This document shows positions 7,946 through 38,236 of a stretch of 38,236 nt of DNA, piece after piece. The DNA is from a virus: IMG/VR virus record IMGVR_UViG_3300044816_000091, positions 1 to 38,236 of that record. One strand, given 5' to 3'. The position numbers were made by a program, and so were the translations under genes. Below the pieces are notes generated by a model. That model was given only the letters and a program-made list of their open reading frames with translations, made no database searches and had not been told where the DNA came from. Each line of letters starts with the position of its first letter. The first letter of the stretch is position 1.

Positions 7946-8451
7946 GTGCATTGATCGCCTTCGGCCATCAGCTCGGCATAATTAAATCGTTCTTTTAAGC
8001 AATCCGTAATATCCACCTGCTCCTGGGATTCTCCCATGATCCGATCGTTGTAAACGAATTTGACCCGAGGAACCCTTATTTTTCTCTCAATGAAGGCGAT
8101 GCCGATTTCCGTCAATTTCCAAAAGCCGGAGGTTCGGCGCATTGTGTCCTCTGGAGTCTTTGGACATTCTTCGATCAATTTCCACATGGCAAGCTTGGCG
8201 AAATCGCCGCTTGTTTTACGATCCGGGCAGAGGCGATCGACGTGCATGTACTCCCCCGGATGGCCTCGACTCATCCGATAAAATCGGATGAGTCCCCGAG
8301 CGATCGTCGAATGAATTTGGCGTGGATAGAGTTTGCAAAACTGGTTACAGCACGGACAGGCCAGCCCTTTTTCTAATCCACGCTGGACGCTCTCCCGCGC
8401 ATCCGCGAGCGTGTCCCGATCTAAGAACAGATTTGTCTGCTCCGCATTCAT
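7942..8451 (-). CDS. Zinc-motif, winged-helix-like phage protein, 169 aa
   Basis: Start 8451 is chosen from the ATGA overlap with the nuclease gene; 8463 and longer readings are open but lack better ribosome sites. A CPCC motif near residue 32 is followed by IHSTIARGLIRFYR, GEYMHVDRL, GDFAKLAMWKLIEE, a SGFWKLTEIGIAFIE segment and IRVPRVKFVYND. This matches a recurrent uncharacterised phage family whose middle resembles a winged-helix DNA-binding domain. It sits among recombination genes and may bind DNA or regulate the operon. Confidence 0.7.
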   Translation of the reverse strand: MNAEQTNLFLDRDTLADARESVQRGLEKGLACPCCNQFCKLYPRQIHSTIARGLIRFYRMSRGHPGEYMHVDRLCPDRKTSGDFAKLAMWKLIEECPKTPEDTMRRTSGFWKLTEIGIAFIERKIRVPRVKFVYNDRIMGESQEQVDITDCLKERFNYAELMAEGDQCT

Positions 8452-9047
8452 CGGGTTTTCCATCGGTGGAGTCTTAGCACGCTGTCCCACTCGTCCCAAT
8501 TCACGCCGTAATTGAATTCCGCCGCTGTCCCGTCGTCGTGCAGCTCGACCACGATAAACGGCAAAGGCTCTGCCTCGGGGGGAAAGCATTGGTCTACGAG
8601 AACCTTATACGCTTGCCCTTGCAAGTCAGCCACGCGGTCGTGCTCTTTCGAGCATTTCCAGTCGTAGATGGCCCGATCGGTGATGAGGTCCGGTGTACCT
8701 GCGAATCTCTGATCACGATCACAGAAGGGTTTCTCAAGCGCCAAGATTTTCTCGTCGTGGTGCGCATCCCAATACTGTAGAAATGCTTCGAATTGATGTT
8801 TGATCGCCTCATCCAAAGACGTGGGATCGAGGTTGCCTTGCAAATACAATTCGATCGCTTTATGCGTGGCGATGCCCCGATCCCGATAAAACGGATCAAC
8901 GCCTTTATAGTCTTTCGAAAGACCGACTTTTGCCAACATTTCCGAAACCGATGGAATGCGCTTTTTCCCGCAGAAATATTTATGGCCTTCCGGCTCGAAA
9001 TAAAACGGCCCCGCATCAATCGTTGCCGTAAGGGATTTCGTTTTCAT
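8448..9047 (-). CDS. RecB/Cas4-like PD-(D/E)XK exonuclease, 199 aa
   Basis: The motif order is that of RecB-family nucleases: RGIATHKAIE near residue 57, LALEKPF with Glu105, GTPDLI with Asp120, YDWKCS with Asp129 and Lys131, and a distal LQGQAYK Gln motif at 142-148. Start 9047 is chosen because AAAGGAGA lies six bases upstream; the longer reading from 9191 would overlap the upstream gene heavily. It probably makes single-stranded ends for the RecT/Bet-like protein encoded nearby, a lambda-Red-like arrangement. Confidence 0.85.
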   Translation of the reverse strand: MKTKSLTATIDAGPFYFEPEGHKYFCGKKRIPSVSEMLAKVGLSKDYKGVDPFYRDRGIATHKAIELYLQGNLDPTSLDEAIKHQFEAFLQYWDAHHDEKILALEKPFCDRDQRFAGTPDLITDRAIYDWKCSKEHDRVADLQGQAYKVLVDQCFPPEAEPLPFIVVELHDDGTAAEFNYGVNWDEWDSVLRLHRWKTR

Positions 9048-9423
9048 CGGCGTCTCCTTTCGCGTATTCGGTGAAATGAACGCGGGTAATCGTGGAATCT
9101 TTTTTGTCCGGGGATTGTGTTGATGTGGCCATGAAGGAAAGGCCTTCGGCGTCGTTGGTGTCCCAATCAAAAACTTCGGGCTCTGTCTCATGGAATCCTA
9201 AAACACGCAATAGCCCGGCCAGCATATTGGGCATGAGCGCAATTTCGCCCAGACAGTTGTTGCCCTTGTCATCCTGATATTGGAGCGACCACACGAAAAA
9301 TTCTGAATTGTTTTTCCCGTAGAGTTTTAGGACCGGCGCCGTAACAACATATCGGCGGCGTCCGTCCGGAATCAGCGGCAGCTTTTTGAATGTTCTTTTT
9401 GTGTTTGTGATTTCTCGGCTCAT
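9016..9423 (-). CDS. Single-strand-DNA-binding-like protein, 135 aa
   Basis: The product has an OB-like beta pattern (RYVVTAPVLKLYGKNNSEFF, then VWSLQYQDDKGNNCLGEIAL) and an acidic tail ending DADENEIPYGND, as in phage single-strand-binding proteins. The assignment rests on pattern and location between the annealing protein and the exonuclease. Its ribosome site and ATG (9434-9421) are complementary to the loop of the small RNA encoded at 16096-16181, which suggests translational control in trans. It overlaps the nuclease gene by 32 bases. Confidence 0.6.
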   Translation of the reverse strand: MSREITNTKRTFKKLPLIPDGRRRYVVTAPVLKLYGKNNSEFFVWSLQYQDDKGNNCLGEIALMPNMLAGLLRVLGFHETEPEVFDWDTNDAEGLSFMATSTQSPDKKDSTITRVHFTEYAKGDADENEIPYGND

Positions 9424-9433
9424 AGCTATCCCC

Positions 9434-9604
9434 TTATTTGTTTTTGTTTAGTTCTGCGAGTAAATTGTCGGCGCATTGGAGTGCGGTCTTTGCGTCGGGA
9501 ACGTCCCCGTTCGACGCGAAACCGTGCATCATCAGAACTGCAAATACTTCTCGTTTGGTTAATCCTATTTCCGAGTCAAATGCTGGATCGTCGTGTGGGA
9601 TCAT
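9434..9604 (-). CDS. Small conserved-type phage protein, 56 aa
   Basis: The ATG overlaps the stop of the annealing-protein gene (ATGA at 9604-9601). The product contains GLTKREVFAVLMMHGFASN, a pattern common in short phage proteins encoded near recombination genes. It is helical with no Cys pair. Function unknown. Its stop lies 10 bases before the next start codon, so this gene ends where the putative sRNA target begins. Confidence 0.65.
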   Translation of the reverse strand: MIPHDDPAFDSEIGLTKREVFAVLMMHGFASNGDVPDAKTALQCADNLLAELNKNK

Positions 9605-10254
9605 GCGACCACCTGCGTTTCGACCGCGTTGGGCTTTTCAAGCGGCTTAGGCATGGAGACGGTGCCGCGCGTGGTGATGGTGTGCGTGGCCCCGTCTTCG
9701 CTCATTTCGAGGCCTAGCTCATCGGCGGTATACATCCCGGCAATCGCATCACCAAAGGTCAGGCGCAAGTTTTCGGCCAGCGCCCGCCACTGGAACATAA
9801 TGCCCGGCTGCTTTTTGTAATTGTCTTTTCCAATGAGTCCCAACGCAGTGGCCTCTTTAATCCCAAAGCGCGTCACTACCGGGTCGAACCCTTTGCGCTT
9901 AATGGTGACCACGGCTTCTTTCTCGTCCTTTTTCACGTCGAAGGCTTCCAGTTCTTTTGTGCGGCGGGCCAAGGCCAGCATGAGTTGGGGCGACACGCTA
10001 ATTTTGCCTTGGATGATGTTGATGGATGAGAAAGCCTCCATCGGCCCGATGCCAATTTCGCGGCCTTTAAAGATGATGGCGACGGCTTTCTCAACAGTGT
10101 TAATGGCGGGCGGTAGGAACCCGGATTTCACCAATGCTTCGGCTTGCTGGCGGTCCACTTCCCATTGCTGCAAGACGGGGGCAAAAGTGGCAATCTCGCC
10201 CGTTTTTTTGTTCACAGTTTCAGCAGGTAGCATTTCGTTTTCGTTCGGTTTCAT
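9601..10254 (-). CDS. RecT/Bet-like single-strand annealing protein, 217 aa
   Basis: The core GREIGIGPMEAFSSINIIQG (about residues 68-87), then GKISVSPQLMLALARR, a middle KEATALGLIGK and RALAENLRLTFGDAIAGMYT match a phage recombinase/annealing family often called RecT-like. Such proteins anneal complementary single strands during recombination. Partnership with the PD-(D/E)XK nuclease and single-strand-binding-like protein of the same operon supports this. The start overlaps the upstream zinc protein gene by 35 bases. Exact subfamily (RecT versus Bet-like) cannot be decided by eye. Confidence 0.75.
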   Translation of the reverse strand: MKPNENEMLPAETVNKKTGEIATFAPVLQQWEVDRQQAEALVKSGFLPPAINTVEKAVAIIFKGREIGIGPMEAFSSINIIQGKISVSPQLMLALARRTKELEAFDVKKDEKEAVVTIKRKGFDPVVTRFGIKEATALGLIGKDNYKKQPGIMFQWRALAENLRLTFGDAIAGMYTADELGLEMSEDGATHTITTRGTVSMPKPLEKPNAVETQVVA

Positions 10255-11303: not shown

Positions 11304-11360
11304 ATTCTCGTCAAGCAAAAAGGTTTCCGTCAATGATTGCACGCTAAAGGGAGAATCTTC

Positions 11361-12512
11361 ATGGCCGAATTTACGGTTTGGAAAGATCGTACAGCCGCTG
11401 GAAGCTTCCGGGTCCGCCACATCGATCCCAAAATTAGCAAAATCCCCGTTACAGATTACGTGGTCAAAAAAGACGAACGCATGGTGATCGACGGCAAAGA
11501 GCGTACCGCGCTCTACATCGCTGAATATTATGTCGGCATTGTGCGCGACCGTTACCGGCGCGGAACTATGGGAATTCCTGACCCGTCGCTATTGCAGGAA
11601 AACCTACAAACCCTCATTGATCAGTACCTCGAAGAAAACAAAAATTTAGGCTGGAAGACCATTTCGCATTACGCCAACTCCTTGAAATTTCTCTGCATAG
11701 ACAACTCCATTTCCACCTTGGGCGCCCTCTTGGGACTCGACTTTAAAGTCTACGTGGAAGAAATGCAAACCCGAAAACGGAAAAACCCCCAGCTCGTCGG
11801 CCTTGCCAATACCACGATTAGAAATCGCTTGGTGGACATTGCCATGTTCTGCGCGTGGCTGGTCAAGCAAAAGAAAATTCAAAAATCGCCTGTGCCCGAA
11901 GGCCTCGCGCCACCCGTGACCAAAGCGCGGCCTCGCTTTTATACGGATGACGAATTTGCTGCGCTTGAAAAAGAAATTAAGCGGATCAATAAGTACGCCC
12001 ACATTGGTTGCCGGCTGGCGCACGATTACGGATTGCGGCGCGTTGAAATTACGGGGGATGGCAAAGAGCGGATGGAAGGCGTTTTATGGGAAGACATTAT
12101 CTGGCACCCGGATGGCCGGGCGGATCTTTTCTTGCGTCCCGAAGTCACCAAGGGCGGAACGGGATCACGCAAACTTCGCTTGGCCCCAGAATTCTTAAAA
12201 CTGATTGGCCCAAAAAAAAGCGGACCCATTGTGCCCTTGACATACGATGCGTTTTGGCGTTACTTCAAACGAGCGCGGCGGGACTCCAAGGTAAACAAAA
12301 AATTGACACTCCATGGCCAACGCCACACGTTTGGAAAAGACTTCCTGCAAAAGACCGGAAGTAACCAGGCGGCGCTGCGCGACCTCATGGGCCACAAGGA
12401 CGTGAAGACTACCGAGATCTATTCGCAATTCGAGCAAAGCTACTTGGATGACACCATGGAAAAGCTGCACAAGGCCCGCAAGAACGGCGCCCCGGTCGTG
12501 GTGCGACGATGA
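11361..12512 (+). CDS. int: Tyrosine recombinase (phage integrase), 383 aa
   Basis: The catalytic set is present: Arg at 226/227 in GLRRVE, HGQR with His318 and Arg321, His345 in LMGHKD and the nucleophile Tyr354 in TTEIYS. An arm-binding/SAM-like core-binding domain precedes it (about residues 75-185). Start 11361 is chosen because GGGAGAAT lies seven bases upstream; a reading from 11337 has no such site. It would integrate and excise the circular genome at an att site, probably the adjacent tRNA region. Confidence 0.93.
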   Translation: MAEFTVWKDRTAAGSFRVRHIDPKISKIPVTDYVVKKDERMVIDGKERTALYIAEYYVGIVRDRYRRGTMGIPDPSLLQENLQTLIDQYLEENKNLGWKTISHYANSLKFLCIDNSISTLGALLGLDFKVYVEEMQTRKRKNPQLVGLANTTIRNRLVDIAMFCAWLVKQKKIQKSPVPEGLAPPVTKARPRFYTDDEFAALEKEIKRINKYAHIGCRLAHDYGLRRVEITGDGKERMEGVLWEDIIWHPDGRADLFLRPEVTKGGTGSRKLRLAPEFLKLIGPKKSGPIVPLTYDAFWRYFKRARRDSKVNKKLTLHGQRHTFGKDFLQKTGSNQAALRDLMGHKDVKTTEIYSQFEQSYLDDTMEKLHKARKNGAPVVVRR

Positions 12513-12519
12513 TTCCCGA

Positions 12520-12539
12520 GGTGTTGGTGAGGTGTTGGA
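12520..12539 (+). repeat. 20-bp direct repeat, copy 1
   Basis: The copy begins eight bases after the integrase stop and matches 12751-12770 at 19 of 20 positions (T/C difference at the fifth base). It contains two GGTGTTGG units. It is a candidate integrase arm site. Confidence 0.6.
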
Positions 12540-12750
12540 GCGAGGAATTTACGAACTTTGATGGTATTCAATGTTCCGTGACGAACTCCTTAAATCATTG
12601 GGCCACACAACGCGAGATCGACGGTAAAATGGCTGTTTGCGCTTTTTCTGACGACAAATAAATTAGAAATACCAGAAGTCTGAAATGGTGTGACAACTGT
12701 TTCGTAAAGAAATGCATTAGTTGATTTATAGATACGTTTTTGACTTTCAA

Positions 12751-12770
12751 GGTGCTGGTGAGGTGTTGGA
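12751..12770 (+). repeat. 20-bp direct repeat, copy 2
   Basis: Second copy of the repeat at 12520-12539, located 29 bases before the tRNA gene. The two copies are 231 bp apart in the same orientation. Confidence 0.6.
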
Positions 12771-12799: not shown

Positions 12800-12871
12800 G
12801 CCGACGTAGCTCAATGGTAGAGCACTCCCTTCGTAAGGGAGATGTTGGAGGTTCAAGTCCTCTCGTCGGCT
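12800..12871 (+). tRNA. tRNA-Thr (anticodon CGU)
   Basis: A full cloverleaf is visible: acceptor GCCGACG/CGTCGGC, D arm GCTC/GAGC, anticodon stem CTCCC/GGGAG with loop TTCGTAA (CGT at 34-36), T arm GGAGG-TTCAAGT-CCTCT, discriminator T. CCA is not encoded. It reads ACG, a codon that is very frequent in the late tail genes. It could be a phage-supplied tRNA or a copy acquired at the integration site downstream of int. Confidence 0.93.
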
Positions 12872-14858: not shown

Positions 14859-15175
14859 CACCGGGAGAACGCGCAGAGAAGATGATTCAGTACCAAATTG
14901 AAAATGACTCCTTGCAATTTGATTACAAGGCCTTCTATGCCGCCGAGATCCGGCAAGCGGAACAAGATGCTTATGCTCACGGCCACTTAGCCGGAGTACA
15001 CACAGCTATGCCAGGGATTATTAAAGAGGCCAAAGCCGAAGCCTACGAAGACGCGGCGAAGATTGCGGAGAGACTCTGTACCATCGAAAATAATGCTCAT
15101 GCCAACAGTGACTATTGGAACGCTTGTAAGGACATTATAAGAGAGATCCGCGCCCGAGCGAAGGAGATCAAATGA
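14855..15175 (+). CDS. Helical hypothetical protein, 106 aa
   Basis: Start 14855 comes from the ATGA overlap; the frame opens at 14819 but that part lies in the zinc-ribbon gene. The product is an Ala/Glu-rich helix bundle (MTPGERAEKMIQYQIE, EAKAEAYEDAAKIAERLC). It ends with a strong AAGGAG site for the following 24-residue gene. Confidence 0.65.
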   Translation: MTPGERAEKMIQYQIENDSLQFDYKAFYAAEIRQAEQDAYAHGHLAGVHTAMPGIIKEAKAEAYEDAAKIAERLCTIENNAHANSDYWNACKDIIREIRARAKEIK

Positions 15176-15246
15176 TGGAACAATTTTGGCCGTTTAGTTT
15201 GATTATCGGATTGCTATTAGCCCTGATTCCATTGGTGATGAAATAA
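15172..15246 (+). CDS. Transmembrane microprotein, 24 aa
   Basis: The product is a short cap (MMEQFWPF) and one hydrophobic span (SLIIGLLLALIPLV) ending Met-Lys. AAGGAG lies seven bases upstream. It is locked by ATGA to the gene before and TAATG to the gene after. A one-span microprotein could modify a host membrane complex or act in superinfection control, which is inference only. Confidence 0.55.
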   Translation: MMEQFWPFSLIIGLLLALIPLVMK

Positions 15247-15476
15247 TGACATTTACCGATGAGGATTTGAAGCAGTGGAAAATTTCACTATCAGGACAAG
15301 GGACATCTTTTTTGTTTCAGCGTAACGATCTTGAAGGACTCATCGCCCGCCTGGAAGCGGCAGAGAAGCTTAACGATGCATATATGAGAAGGACATGCCG
15401 ACATATCAGTAGGCATCCGGGTGACACGGAAATCCATAAGGCAATGGACGTATGGCGCAAGGCGTCGGGGAAATGA
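15246..15476 (+). CDS. Small paralogue pair, member 1, 76 aa
   Basis: Begins MTFTDEDLKQW and contains LEGLIARLEAAEKLN and WRKASGK. The same order appears in the next gene, so the two are tandem duplicates. The last part has a CRH element. It overlaps both neighbours. Function unknown. Confidence 0.6.
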   Translation: MTFTDEDLKQWKISLSGQGTSFLFQRNDLEGLIARLEAAEKLNDAYMRRTCRHISRHPGDTEIHKAMDVWRKASGK

Positions 15477-15664: not shown

Positions 15665-15915
15665 CCTCTTGCCTCTGCGTGGTTATTGATGGCCGGGTTA
15701 TTCTTTGTCGAGTCCATGCCGCAGCATTTGATATGTTGGATGCCTGCAAGATGGTGGACATCTATTTTAAAGCACTGTGCGAACAATGGGCGGCGAATGA
15801 TGGTCGTGTAGTGTCCAAGCGTGGGACAGTCATTAACGCTTCGAAAGATGTCGCAGAATTGTGTGAAGTCGCAGCTCGTAAAGTGTCGGAAGCTATTTCC
15901 AAGGCGGTGGAATAA
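15661..15915 (+). CDS. Small hypothetical protein, 84 aa
   Basis: Start 15661 (ATGA) is used. The N-terminus MTSCLCVVIDGRVILCRVHA has three Cys; the rest is an Ala/Val helix. It ends in a TAATG overlap with an RHH-like gene. No family is recognised. Confidence 0.6.
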   Translation: MTSCLCVVIDGRVILCRVHAAAFDMLDACKMVDIYFKALCEQWAANDGRVVSKRGTVINASKDVAELCEVAARKVSEAISKAVE

Positions 15916-16064
15916 TGAAAGACCCAGAAAAGATTTATCTGGAAATTCCTCTTAATCCAGAGTTATTAAAATTGATTTCTGCCGATAGCCAAGCACACTA
16001 TCGTGATCCCGTTAATCAAATCCTCTATATTTTAGAAGAGCGGTATCGAAAGAAGGATAATTGA
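15915..16064 (+). CDS. Ribbon-helix-helix-like protein 3, 49 aa
   Basis: KIYLEIPLNPELLKLISADS followed by VNQILYILEERYRKK has the RHH strand-helix-helix pattern and resembles the two RHH proteins near 10.8 kb. It is the last gene of the chain. A terminator begins within its final codons. A role as a DNA-binding regulator is likely; the target is unknown. Confidence 0.6.
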   Translation: MKDPEKIYLEIPLNPELLKLISADSQAHYRDPVNQILYILEERYRKKDN

Positions 16065-16077
16065 CTTCTTTTTTTTT
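16049..16077 (+). terminator. Intrinsic terminator of the small-gene chain
   Basis: AAAGAAG (16049-16055) pairs with CTTCTTT (16065-16071) around a nine-base loop, followed by a run of T to 16077. It overlaps the stop of the RHH-like gene and the -35 box of the next promoter. Confidence 0.65.
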
Positions 16078-16089
16078 GTTTTGTAAATT
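16061..16089 (+). promoter_or_regulatory. Promoter of the small RNA
   Basis: TTGACT (16061-16066) and TAAATT (16084-16089) are separated by 17 bases. They match sigma-70 boxes at 5/6 and 4/6. The expected start, about seven bases on, is near 16096, where the first arm of the RNA structure begins. Confidence 0.65.
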
Positions 16090-16095
16090 CCGCGC

Positions 16096-16181
16096 ATGAG
16101 AGAAATCCAATTCCTAAACACGATTTTCTGGCGATCCCCGGATTTCTCTCATAGCTATCCTCTGGGATCGCCTACTTTTTT
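16096..16181 (+). ncRNA. Candidate antisense small RNA against the SSB-like gene
   Basis: About 86 nt with its own promoter and terminator. Two perfect inverted repeats interleave: 16096-16108 with 16140-16152 (13 bp), and 16130-16138 with 16164-16172 (9 bp). The second forms the terminator stem. Its 25-nt loop (16139-16163) is complementary to the ribosome site, ATG and early codons of the gene at 9016-9423: 16141-16148 equals 9409-9416, and 16149-16163 equals 9420-9434 except for one C/T. The 5' arm copies the target-like sequence and can cover the loop. No coding frame is seen. Confidence 0.6.
16130..16181 (+). terminator. Terminator hairpin of the small RNA
   Basis: GGCGATCCC (16130-16138) and GGGATCGCC (16164-16172) form a 9-bp stem with a 25-base loop, followed by TAC and six T. 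The antisense stretch is displayed in the loop. Read-through would enter the gene at 16188. Confidence 0.7.
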
Positions 16182-16187
16182 AAGACT

Positions 16188-16430
16188 ATGACTGTTGCCG
16201 AACTGATTAAAAGGCTCACCGAATATGATCCATCACTAGAAGTTGTATTCGATTGGGAAGGTGGGCACTCCGAAGCAAAGTCTTTTGAAATAGTGAAAGC
16301 AGAATACGGGAATGTCCTATCCATCGACGTAGATGATTATGGTGGCTATAACCGTAGACATCAGATGGCCCTTGGATTAATCAGAGATCCTGATGCAGAA
16401 GAAGATGAACCCGAAAATAAAGTGAAGTAG
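16188..16430 (+). CDS. Small acidic phage protein, 80 aa
   Basis: The product begins MTVAELIKRLTEYDPSLEVV and continues with acidic beta segments (VLSIDVDDYGGYN), a pattern common in short phage early proteins of unknown role. There is no ribosome site before the ATG, and the small-RNA terminator ends seven bases upstream, so translation could depend on read-through or internal start. The C-terminal tail is Glu/Asp-rich. Confidence 0.65.
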   Translation: MTVAELIKRLTEYDPSLEVVFDWEGGHSEAKSFEIVKAEYGNVLSIDVDDYGGYNRRHQMALGLIRDPDAEEDEPENKVK

Positions 16431-16434
16431 ATTT

Positions 16435-16600
16435 AGCCGCCATTAACGTTTGGCGGGTGCGTAGCGTCAATGGGTAGGCTTACAAGCCTTCGTCATTTGA
16501 GAGAAAGAATCGGAATTTAGCCTTTGAGTCATTCCGAAAGACGCTAGGGAAAAATAGAACGGTCAACCTTCCAGTATGCTCTTTAAAGAGTATTTTTTTT
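16435..16600 (+). ncRNA. Structured RNA with three-way junction and terminator
   Basis: No frame is open here, but paired segments are dense. CCGCCA/TGGCGG (16437-16442, 16451-16456) makes one hairpin. TAGCGTC/GACGCTA (16462-16468, 16540-16546) closes a junction that holds AGGCTT/AAGCCT (16476-16489) and TCGGAAT/ATTCCGA (16510-16516, 16531-16537). A terminator follows at 16576-16600. It could be a regulatory RNA or a structured 3' region of the gene before it. No promoter was found directly upstream. Confidence 0.5.
16576..16600 (+). terminator. Intrinsic terminator
   Basis: The self-complementary CTCTTTAAAGAG (16579-16590), extended by ATG/TAT pairing, makes a 7-bp stem with a TTAA loop. 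Eight T follow (16593-16600). Confidence 0.75.
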
Positions 16601-16615
16601 CTTTTCCCTAAACAC

Positions 16616-16747
16616 TAGTAATTAACTTAATTAACTTAATTAATAATTAAATTTGGCCGTGGTCGTTGCCTTGGCCCTTCCCACTATAAGCTGCCGTACC
16701 GCTTTACTCTTTCCCTAGCGCGATAGCGCGTCGGGAAAGAGTAAAGC
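16616..16747. other. AT-rich repeat plus 15-bp hairpin; possible replication origin
   Basis: ATTAACTTA repeats in tandem at 16621-16629 and 16630-16638, with a partial third copy, inside about 40 bases of nearly pure A/T. Then GCTTTACTCTTTCCC (16701-16715) is matched by its perfect complement at 16733-16747, with GCGC pairing in the loop. Iteron-like AT repeats beside a long hairpin fit a phage replication origin or another protein-bound site. There is no T run after the hairpin, so it is not a simple terminator. Confidence 0.4.
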
Positions 16748-16799
16748 ATCCCCGCCCGCCGGATGGCGGAGCATGGGAAAGGAGCAGGAGAAAAGGCCT

Positions 16800-16970
16800 A
16801 TGAAAAAGTTCCGTATGGTTTCAGACGTTGTCTTTGAAGCAGAATCAATTGATGACGCGATGGCAAAACTTGCCAAACATTTTGCATCGTTTGAAACAGA
16901 AACTCAAGATGAGGACGGTTTAGAATTTAATGGCGATATCGAGATTGTGCCTTTGGATGACTCTGAATGA
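16800..16970 (+). CDS. Small acidic protein, 56 aa
   Basis: Start 16800 is chosen; the frame also opens at 16773. The product MKKFRMVSDVVFEAESIDDA, then MAKLAKHFASFE, and an acidic end (EIVPLDDSE) forms a compact alpha/beta pattern seen in short phage proteins. It overlaps the next gene by ATGA. Function unknown. Confidence 0.6.
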   Translation: MKKFRMVSDVVFEAESIDDAMAKLAKHFASFETETQDEDGLEFNGDIEIVPLDDSE

Positions 16971-17164
16971 ATGGAGGGAATCAGGACCGTATGTATCCTC
17001 CAGGTTCAAAGGTTCGCGTATTGCGTGGGGCGTTGGCGGGGCAAATTCTAACCGTTCGTGCTTGTTCGTTGGATGAGATTTATTTAGCGGAGTGTCCCAA
17101 AAGTCAGTCGATGTCTAAGTTGAATGTTGAGCCTATCGAAGTGAAGCCGGGAAAATCAAAGTGA
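16967..17164 (+). CDS. Small SH3/KOW-like protein, 65 aa
   Basis: The motif PGSKVRVLRGALAGQILTVR resembles a KOW or SH3-like beta barrel as in small RNA- or DNA-binding proteins. Start 16967 is taken from the ATGA overlap; Met9 at 16991 is possible. Its TGA overlaps a GTG start. Confidence 0.55.
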   Translation: MNGGNQDRMYPPGSKVRVLRGALAGQILTVRACSLDEIYLAECPKSQSMSKLNVEPIEVKPGKSK

Positions 17165-17265
17165 CGGGAACGATTGGGCCACTTTGGAAAGCCTGTGAAC
17201 ATTGCGGCGTTTTAATTCCATCTGAAACGATTATTTGTCCTGTTTGCCGGAAAGAGCTGAAATAA
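17161..17265 (+). CDS. Zinc-ribbon microprotein (GTG start), 34 aa
   Basis: GTGA overlap with the gene before. CEHC (12-15) and CPVC (26-29) make a minimal zinc ribbon with ETII between. It is the last + strand gene before the convergent amidoligase operon. Confidence 0.5.
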   Translation: MTGTIGPLWKACEHCGVLIPSETIICPVCRKELK

Positions 17266-17298
17266 GCAGGTGAGGTGCATCACCCAGATACACCTGCA
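17266..17298. terminator. Hairpin between convergent operons
   Basis: GCAGGTG (17266-17272) and CACCTGC (17292-17298) form a 7-bp stem with an inner GGTG/CACC. It begins right after the microprotein stop. There is no strong T run, so termination is uncertain. Nothing else is seen up to 17372. Confidence 0.4.
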
Positions 17299-17372
17299 AG
17301 GCCCCAAGGATTCGTTTTAAGCGAAGTTTTTGAAGAAATGCGACCAAGATGCGTTGGCGATTGGGAAGGGCG

Positions 17373-17552
17373 TTAATTCGTGTTTGGGTTAGATTCGCAC
17401 TTTACGCATGTTCCGGCTGACATATTGCACGCTTGCATACACGTGTCGTAGCCGTAGTAATAGCAGGTCTTATCCCCGGTGTTATTGACGGTGCACCATG
17501 TGGCATTACCCTGGACGTAAGATAGGACGGCAACGGCGATTAAGAATTTCAC
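17373..17552 (-). CDS. Secreted Cys-rich small protein, DUF3551-like, 59 aa
   Basis: The start is GTG at 17552, because AAGGAGG lies seven bases upstream; the longer ATG reading from 17612 runs through the previous gene. The N-terminus VKFLIAVAVLSYVQGNA is a signal peptide. The mature part has six Cys (WCTV, TCYYYG, DTCMQAC, GTCVKC) and ends ESNPNTN, resembling DUF3551 proteins of alphaproteobacteria. It is the last gene of the amidoligase operon strand and may be exported after lysogeny. Function unknown. Confidence 0.65.
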   Translation of the reverse strand: MKFLIAVAVLSYVQGNATWCTVNNTGDKTCYYYGYDTCMQACNMSAGTCVKCESNPNTN

Positions 17553-18868: not shown

Positions 18869-19984
18869 TTAGTAGGCTCCGTTCGTTGGGGTAATGAGAA
18901 AATGCTCTGGGTTAAAACCTTCTAAGGTTGATACGACGGCGACGGGCATACGTTCGATAAGGTTTGCATTGACAGCTAGGCGTTCCGCGCGTGAGCGTCC
19001 GCGTTGTATTTCTTGACGGCGTTCCTCGCGTTCCGTAGCCGTATAATGCTCTCTTTCGATACGTTCACTTTCTATACGGTTATTGTTTTCGATATGGGCT
19101 AGACCATGCGCGTTATCCATTTCAATGGCTAGGGCCTGGGTATGTGCGGTTCCTACGTTGCGGATGCGTCTGCCATTTTCACAGGCATTCGCTAGGCAGA
19201 CTAGGCGGTCAATTTCGTTAGCTATATCGACACGTCCAACGTGAGAAGAAAATAATTGAACGGCGGTAGTGTATGCGACTTGATTGGAACTAGGCCGTAA
19301 CAGGCTATCCCGAATACCTGCAAACATCTGATTTAATTTATTGGCTTCACTTTGTAAAAGTGTAGGATCGGCAATCATGCGCCAAGCGCTTTTAGCCATG
19401 GCGTGACTTGCTGCAATCCACGCCAACAAATAGGCGTAACGTTTTGTAGATCCTAAGAGCCGAATTTCTACGGTGCCAATACCGCCTGGTCTAAACATTT
19501 CAACGATGTTTACCCATTGATAGCGGAACGGGGAATTCCCATATTTTTCTGGGCTATAGCGGCGGGTAGAAATAGCGTCATTGTTTCCGGTCCAACGACG
19601 GCAATAATTATTTGAGCGGCGAGATTCTGGCACAGACGAAAAGGCAGTTTCTTCTACGCTACGTGCAAGCAGCACAAAATTACCTGCCCATTGCTGGCGC
19701 TGTATCGGAGTTACGCGCCCTTGCAGTCCGATATGCACGTGGAAACCACAAGAGCGGTCTACGTGTAAATCGTTGTCGGCGGTCAAGGTCCGCAATGCTT
19801 CTAAACTTTCCGGAATGCGCGTGACGTATTCCGGGGCAATCTTATATTCAATCCCTTGACCTGCTACTGATCCGTCGCGTTCACGGATGACGGATGCAGG
19901 AGTTTCACGCGATCCATGCGTTGCTTCTAATTCCCATCCTAGAGAAAACGTAGGCTCTAGGGTGATACGCGCGCGCCGTGGCAT
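18869..19984 (-). CDS. Amidoligase (glutamine-synthetase-like COOH-NH2 ligase, PF12224 type), 371 aa
   Basis: The family motifs appear in order: LGWELEA (15-21), RDGSV (36-40), GIEYKIAP (44-51), CGFHVHIG (79-86) and VEIRLLG (172-178). The Glu, His and Arg residues match the metal/ATP site of GS-like ligases, which form amide bonds from a carboxylate and ammonia or an amine. A long charged helical tail (about 290-350) may bind the substrate. It starts directly at the stop of the 97-aa gene, so translation is coupled. The substrate is unknown. Confidence 0.85.
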   Translation of the reverse strand: MPRRARITLEPTFSLGWELEATHGSRETPASVIRERDGSVAGQGIEYKIAPEYVTRIPESLEALRTLTADNDLHVDRSCGFHVHIGLQGRVTPIQRQQWAGNFVLLARSVEETAFSSVPESRRSNNYCRRWTGNNDAISTRRYSPEKYGNSPFRYQWVNIVEMFRPGGIGTVEIRLLGSTKRYAYLLAWIAASHAMAKSAWRMIADPTLLQSEANKLNQMFAGIRDSLLRPSSNQVAYTTAVQLFSSHVGRVDIANEIDRLVCLANACENGRRIRNVGTAHTQALAIEMDNAHGLAHIENNNRIESERIEREHYTATEREERRQEIQRGRSRAERLAVNANLIERMPVAVVSTLEGFNPEHFLITPTNGAY

Positions 19985-37900: not shown

Positions 37901-38236
37901 GGGCGGCCAGCCTGTTTTTCAACAAGTCCTATTACCTCTCGGTGGCCACCGCAGGATCTTCATTCAACAACCTTTTAATCGAATACGACTACGAGAACAA
38001 TTGGCGCATCCACTCTGGCGTCAGCATCGGAACGATGGCGACGTACTTCAATGACATCTACTATTGCGACGCGCTGAACGGCAACATTTACAACGGCTTC
38101 CAATCCCTTACAGACAACGGGACGCCGATCATGATGGACCTGCGCACCAAGTCGTTTGACCTGGGCGACAACCTGCATTTAAAAACCGTTCGTTCATTAA
38201 AGATCAACGGAGTAAATACAGGGACATTAATGCACG
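34972..38236 (+). CDS. Large tail protein, N-terminal part (runs off the right end into 2-508)
   Basis: An unbroken frame of 1,088 codons runs from ATG 34972 to the contig end and continues at base 2 of the window, giving about 1,174 residues. The N-terminal 100 residues (MNKSSLNIPAQDGKWGSYIS, and on) are followed by a long beta-rich body with Ser/Thr/Gly-rich linkers and repeated beta-sandwich-like blocks (for example YKVTYLYYNGVEESNPSAAS near residue 186 and RYWRILLNL near residue 762). It is probably a tail hub, needle or fibre of a podovirus. No hydrolase motif was recognised. Confidence 0.8.
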   Translation, partial: MNKSSLNIPAQDGKWGSYISKYPPDSNVVANNSFTKGSRNLITSASGQAEKRQGGIIWNPASLLTGPALDQFEGVFSTGQRLFIVNDAGTLKASTGNGLFANLVGGTGFTNPANFEFVTYQSKVYGCNGVDAPIVIDIATSYGGVSYTATPAKVRPMGSTAPGSAPTSGTPTSGGSVPAGAHTYKVTYLYYNGVEESNPSAASSIQTAAGPNFTIGLSAIPVGGYGVTGRNIYRDNNDGNYLLLTTINNNTTTTFSDTLVIGSTPTPIPSLNFGPPLFKYCLLYLDRIFVIDIAGKNIYWSLAGAPDVFYPQNAIAGPPDDIMTGFGFLNGLPYVFGQHTVGTILGTTDSSFYYNSLSTAVGCVDNRSIQTRLIVSVPTLMWLAALPNRGIYYTNGSIIQHMSDNIQDLTFNLAQISYLSRLNSQASQSDFEGGTSTAGIDLFTNPGTIQTINPKVLYSHSADWAAGVLSNLAPVGDTLQVPTTFAPSLGSGILTGDGQISGSNVRLPAGSDFTGESLGGAGTVNWNSDAVNTRYFSNNIAQSIIPSVTGTLGTISGLGFNMYAANASAGNFNIVVAVYSDAGGLPGSSIGSQTFSLPGGNGADQPLSIPTATINASLTGGTRYWIVVSITLINNGGQFDQLTFTSGSWSGGGPAYSKSSGSTWAPFGPPSNSTHRSIAGTYTFSKTPVADSGGWISGAYDSLSTTVTSGMSLVLSAGSYPASTSGSAVVQGSTNGSTWVTTDTLSNPSGSNSLTGGVYRYWRILLNLATTDNRSIPLIGTPTLKFNSTGTWTSPAIALTTDATALNNLVQSVMVPAGTSAIIQIATSASSGSGYSSYTAIGLATPNTYAKIKVTLTSSSSDGSTSASLVTAELDWTVVSTFISSIVDTGQVPSGWGIFEFQSNAVSSAVSPYFRTASSSGGIPSATFASVINGAFPTNAVFEFFQYKMILTATADQIPQVSTVTTNWLLTSGANVRAASLFFNKSYYLSVATAGSSFNNLLIEYDYENNWRIHSGVSIGTMATYFNDIYYCDALNGNIYNGFQSLTDNGTPIMMDLRTKSFDLGDNLHLKTVRSLKINGVNTGTLMH
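37989..38236. repeat. Terminal overlap, right copy
   Basis: Matches bases 1-248 at 243 of 248 positions and keeps the tail-gene frame. See the left copy. The unit genome is counted without this stretch. Confidence 0.9.

Follow-up and report, generated by a model that had tools for sequence, protein, structure and literature searches.

Predicted phage small RNA with a terminator loop complementary to a distant gene start and to its own 5' end

A short region of a phage genome has the layout of an 86-nt RNA, with a terminator loop that is complementary to the start of a gene located 6.7 kb away and, in part, to the first nucleotides of the same RNA. We tentatively read the region as the gene for an antisense RNA that acts in trans on the SSB-like gene of a recT/exonuclease operon and is gated by self-pairing (probability roughly 0.48, judged from sequence). 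The RNA would be untranslated (~16096-16181) and would repress that gene through a terminator loop antisense to the gene's translation start.

The window (the whole stretch of DNA analysed, a 38,236-base IMG/VR viral record) encodes an integrase, RecT, an exonuclease, a large terminase and a major head protein. A terminal direct repeat of 248 nt (1-248 and 37989-38236; 98% identical, 5 differences) and a structural reading frame that is unbroken across the end-to-end join make the record look essentially complete, from a circularly permuted or circular genome, and it seems to represent a complete phage genome of ~37,988 bp.

The coordinates given in an earlier note on this DNA were all right on direct reading (Table 1). 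The hexamers TTGACT (16061-16066) and TAAATT (16084-16089) are separated by a 17-nt spacer, and the predicted +1 (16096) lies 7 nt past the -10 hexamer. Raw 9/12 promoter matches are commonplace (4 sites in the window versus 7.3 expected); in a simple log-odds scan this site has the highest score in the window, a maximum that was also reached in 80 of 100 Markov shuffles, so the score alone is unremarkable. The stem arms GGCGATCCC (16130-16138) and GGGATCGCC (16164-16172) are followed by TAC and T6, and the hairpin is the top-scoring terminator-like hairpin in the window by our own scoring. The best promoter-like and best terminator-like sites lie within ~120 bp on the same strand and in the right order; what is notable is the position of the promoter beside the best terminator, rather than its score. 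A short RNA is thereby framed by a discrete promoter and an intrinsic terminator, both predicted, as is expected of an sRNA. A weak AT-rich hairpin (AAAGAAG/CTTCTTT) with a T run at 16044-16080 overlaps the -35 region and spacer of the promoter, and could be a weak terminator for upstream genes.

Table 1 Features of the predicted RNA, its putative target and the neighbouring genes.
Feature	Position	Strand	Basis
Sigma70-like promoter, TTGACT-17-TAAATT	16061-16089	+	Direct reading; top log-odds site, maximum expected in shuffles
Predicted 86-nt RNA, +1 to end of T6	16096-16181	+	Positions of promoter and terminator
5' arm ATGAGAGAAATCC, perfectly complementary to loop 16140-16152	16096-16108	+	Exact 13-nt inverted repeat
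Possible 31-codon leaderless ORF; stop overlaps ATG of gene 16188 (ATGA)	16096-16191	+	Translation; no Shine-Dalgarno
Terminator hairpin, 9-bp stem 16130-16138/16164-16172, 25-nt loop 16139-16163	16130-16172	+	
Antisense segment of loop, 23 nt, to start region of gene 9016-9423	16141-16163	+	Alignment, duplex energy
T6 tail of terminator	16176-16181	+	Direct reading
Downstream gene, 80 aa, small phage protein	16188-16430	+	phrog_5861/7217, E 2e-4 and 8e-4
Target region: Shine-Dalgarno AGGGGAT, spacer, ATG, codons 2-5 of SSB-like gene	9409-9434	-	Direct reading, duplex energy
Target gene, 135 aa, SSB-like mainly by position	9016-9423	-	Downstream of recT, upstream of exonuclease
recT	9601-10254	-	PHROG RecT-like, 3.5e-17
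Exonuclease	8448-9191	-	PHROGs, 6.7e-18

The loop match that had been reported to a distant start region was borne out with exact coordinates: 16141-16148 equals 9409-9416, 9417-9419 are three extra bases, and 16149-16163 differs from 9420-9434 at a single position, a C/T difference that is a G-U wobble when taken as RNA-RNA pairing. The loop is antisense to the ribosome site, the ATG and the first codons, and the match ends where the stem begins, both as previously claimed; complementarity to a ribosome-binding or start region encoded elsewhere is a second property expected of an sRNA. The loop-target duplex has 23 pairs, with one G-U and one 3-nt bulge (-33.9 kcal/mol), and among the 61 start regions tested, the second-best reached -18.3 kcal/mol. 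The target start region is weakly structured (MFE -3.0), leaving a total of -23.0 kcal/mol after the costs of opening both partners. When the whole 86 nt is allowed to pair, the target ranks sixth by raw duplex energy (-36.4) and best among the eight examined after opening costs (-8.5).

Chance resemblance in an ordinary intrinsic terminator would account for the match most simply, and the case was picked from many features in a first reading. The match has a local alignment score of 18, equalled by none of 4,000 shuffled loops (both strands, whole window), and the Gumbel P of finding so good a match somewhere in the window is ~5e-4, before its antisense position on a start site is counted. 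About 1% of arbitrary 25-mers from the window score as high elsewhere in it (4 of 400), so the match by itself is moderate, suggestive evidence; lying on a start site, in antisense orientation and inside a terminator loop, it becomes stronger. Together with the self-complementarity described below, which is independent of it, this makes chance a very unlikely explanation.

The product of the proposed target gene has a single detected homologue (in L004; 35-37% identical), which is likewise encoded beside recT and exonuclease genes, and no family match was found for it. A two-sequence AlphaFold model was poor (pLDDT 56) with an OB-like strand order, and its fold hits, none of them significant, include DUF669 proteins and OB-fold ssDNA-binding proteins. 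The description of the target as single-strand-binding-like therefore agrees with the operon position beside recT and the exonuclease gene and gains no significant fold match from the model; we keep 'SSB-like' as a weak label, a fair guess from operon position and a low-confidence OB-like model. The sequence ATAGCTAT occurs in only two places in the window. An operator was considered for it and rejected, given a palindrome of merely 8 bp.

A feature absent from the earlier note is that the loop is also complementary to the beginning of its own RNA, in an arm that starts at the predicted +1. The self-complement of 13 nt compares with at most 10 nt in shuffles of the RNA outside the stem. The arm also copies the first codons of the target, minus one codon; past the first codons, sense homology of 16096-16130 to the SSB-like gene was not significant (rest, 857 of 3,000 shuffles; whole, 114 of 3,000). 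The 13-bp (S1) and 9-bp (S2) helices interleave as an H-type pseudoknot with loops of 21, 1 and 11 nt, so that the sequence offers two interleaved helices and loops long enough to span the grooves. The pseudoknot energy, a crude sum of helix energies with a penalty of 9.6 rather than the output of a validated predictor, is -34.7 kcal/mol; the best nested fold reaches -24.5, and shuffles give -3.4 (sd 3.8, with -18.6 as the best). When six phage genomes were scanned coarsely, in steps of 25, one site came out better than -34.7; in that scan the frame cuts the element itself, which scores -28.0. Long-loop terminator-like hairpins were compared across the window and seven related records, and no other hairpin combines a strong match to a distant site with a strong match to its own upstream sequence.

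These two complementarities suggest how the RNA might work. It would fold as an H-type pseudoknot in which the 5' half of the loop is taken up by the RNA's 5' end (AUGAGAGAAAUCC). The pseudoknot leaves free AGCUAUCCUCU, the loop part complementary to the Shine-Dalgarno and spacer, and the 5' arm covers the part complementary to the ATG and first codons. Contact with the mRNA would begin at this free anti-Shine-Dalgarno part. The 5' arm would next give way to the mRNA's own ATG and first codons, which it resembles, and ribosomes would be shut out. On geometric grounds a closed 25-nt loop on a GC-rich stem is probably too small for 23 A-form pairs at once, so pairing would have to start in part of the loop; full pairing with the stem opened has a net energy of only -8.5. 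The loop also has a second, perfect partner in the RNA's own 5' end, which would compete with the target, and the picture of a free loop is for this reason incomplete. The proposal of a trans-acting antisense RNA that blocks translation thus keeps its complementarity, its accessible target and its compact promoter-RNA-terminator layout, and must accommodate a loop that may be occupied by the RNA's own 5' end and a stem that would have to open. In a more specific form, which we consider unlikely, the RNA would be self-capped: its 5' end mimics the target's first codons and caps the coding half of the loop, the anti-Shine-Dalgarno half serves as a toehold, and specificity comes from strand displacement that needs both parts of the target. 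In a 5' arm that mimics the target start, toehold-gated pairing would have a natural counterpart, and antisense repression of this gene, if true, would link plus-strand transcription to the shut-off of phage recombination. To our knowledge, few phage antisense RNAs have been characterized, and the most familiar examples target genes for immunity or lysis-lysogeny.

The second partner of the loop also allows a role in cis, as does the layout, in which the stop codon of a 31-codon ORF overlaps the next ATG. The element would then be a terminator or pseudoknot within a plus-strand operon that stops or tunes transcription between the genes at 15915-16064 and 16188-16430, perhaps in a way linked to the translation of the 31-codon ORF, and its resemblance to 9409-9434 would be secondary. 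It lies between two same-strand genes, the gene at 16188 has no clear Shine-Dalgarno, and stepwise folding predicts the 13-bp hairpin at first, then a nested structure without it once the 3' arm of the terminator has been made. A classic either/or transcription attenuator was rejected, given that no base belongs to both the 13-bp and the 9-bp helix and that the two can coexist in a pseudoknot; only an inner 4-bp helix conflicts. A cis role leaves unexplained why the loop matches a start site at a distance of 6.7 kb, with a Shine-Dalgarno part for which the 5' arm has no counterpart, and the 31-codon ORF may be incidental; we regard this reading as doubtful.

The match might alternatively record how the sequence arose, a duplicated or template-switched gene start region having landed in the terminator loop with no regulatory role. 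The minus strand (AGAGGATAGCTATGAGAGAAATC) resembles the start of gene 9016-9423, with a Shine-Dalgarno, an ATG and a 12-codon frame; the 3-nt gap is in codon register and amounts to exactly one codon (MSREI versus MREI), and a 13-nt inverted copy is of the kind that template switching produces. The match, however, ends where the stem begins, none of the phage's other start regions has been copied in this way and no minus-strand gene follows; we regard this origin as distinctly unlikely.

We compared the predicted antisense RNA with known RNAs. The nearest in effect is C4 of phages P1 and P7, an RNA of ~77 nt with loops complementary to the ribosome-binding site of a phage mRNA, the translation of which it blocks (PMC12197685, PMC5320573). 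Both are short phage RNAs with loop complementarity to a ribosome site; C4 is an RNA of three stem-loops that RNase P processes from a longer transcript (PMC5320573), whereas the fold here is one terminator hairpin plus a 5' arm. Rfam searches of the whole window at the gathering threshold found only tRNA, and C4 was not among the permissive Rfam matches of 15900-17400. The RepG sRNA of Helicobacter pylori pairs in trans through the terminator loop itself with a distant mRNA leader (PMC8295292). The likeness lies in the use of a terminator loop as a trans-acting pairing site, although RepG is chromosomal and its C/U-rich loop acts on a homopolymeric G-repeat. We know of no self-pairing 5' arm in RepG. 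OOP of lambda and sar of P22 are encoded in cis, opposite their targets, which fits a review's definition of asRNAs. Both are short, phage-encoded and act by antisense repression of a phage gene (PMC12197685), whereas here the target is encoded far from the RNA and the pairing is confined to a loop. If the proposal is right, the element would act much as these RNAs do; it is outside every named family tested, and the pseudoknot cap is its unusual part.

Relatives of the element were sought in several ways. Viral contigs scanned for exact copies of TCTCATAGCTATCC yielded 96 stretches, none of them in a context with this hairpin, and a scan for GGATAGCTATGAG plus GAAAT gave five hits, all by chance. 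Blastn against phages and plasmids matched only the T-rich promoter, no element turned up in 14 related records searched by blastn or in 448 kb of related loci searched with a covariance model, and scans of viral contigs with the RecT, SSB-like, head, 18869-19984 and downstream proteins plus two DNA patterns found no second copy. A genome scan for hosts or prophages found no match to RecT and, for the head protein, a single distant hit in Erysipelotrichaceae. Eight structural relatives share the virion genes (major head protein 66-82% identical) and have a different early region; in L004, which has recT, an SSB-like gene and an exonuclease gene, the start region of the SSB-like gene (GAGGAGAAAAAATCATG) is unrelated to the loop. 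The absence of homologues neither supports nor refutes function.

In one close structural relative (L116, G006; 15150-15311), two oppositely oriented terminator hairpins stand next to the integrase gene; their ends are near-identical (TTATTTTTTATGCGC), and their 7-nt apical loops (ATAGTGC and GCACTAT) are perfectly complementary. This pair was considered as an analogue of the element and rejected, as it lies beside the integrase gene and has no distant target. In the window, a tRNA-Thr (CGT; 12800-12871) lies just downstream of the integrase gene (11337-12512) and is a possible attachment site or a carried tRNA, and a 30-nt direct repeat (12510-12539 and 12741-12770; 83% identical) between the two possibly represents att-related arms. 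A 340-bp non-coding stretch (16430-16770) contains a terminator-like hairpin with T8 (~16578-16600), 9-nt tandem repeats (TAATTAACT; 16619-16643) and a perfect hairpin of unusual length with an inner GCGC-GATA-GCGC (16701-16747), and is a candidate origin or second RNA.
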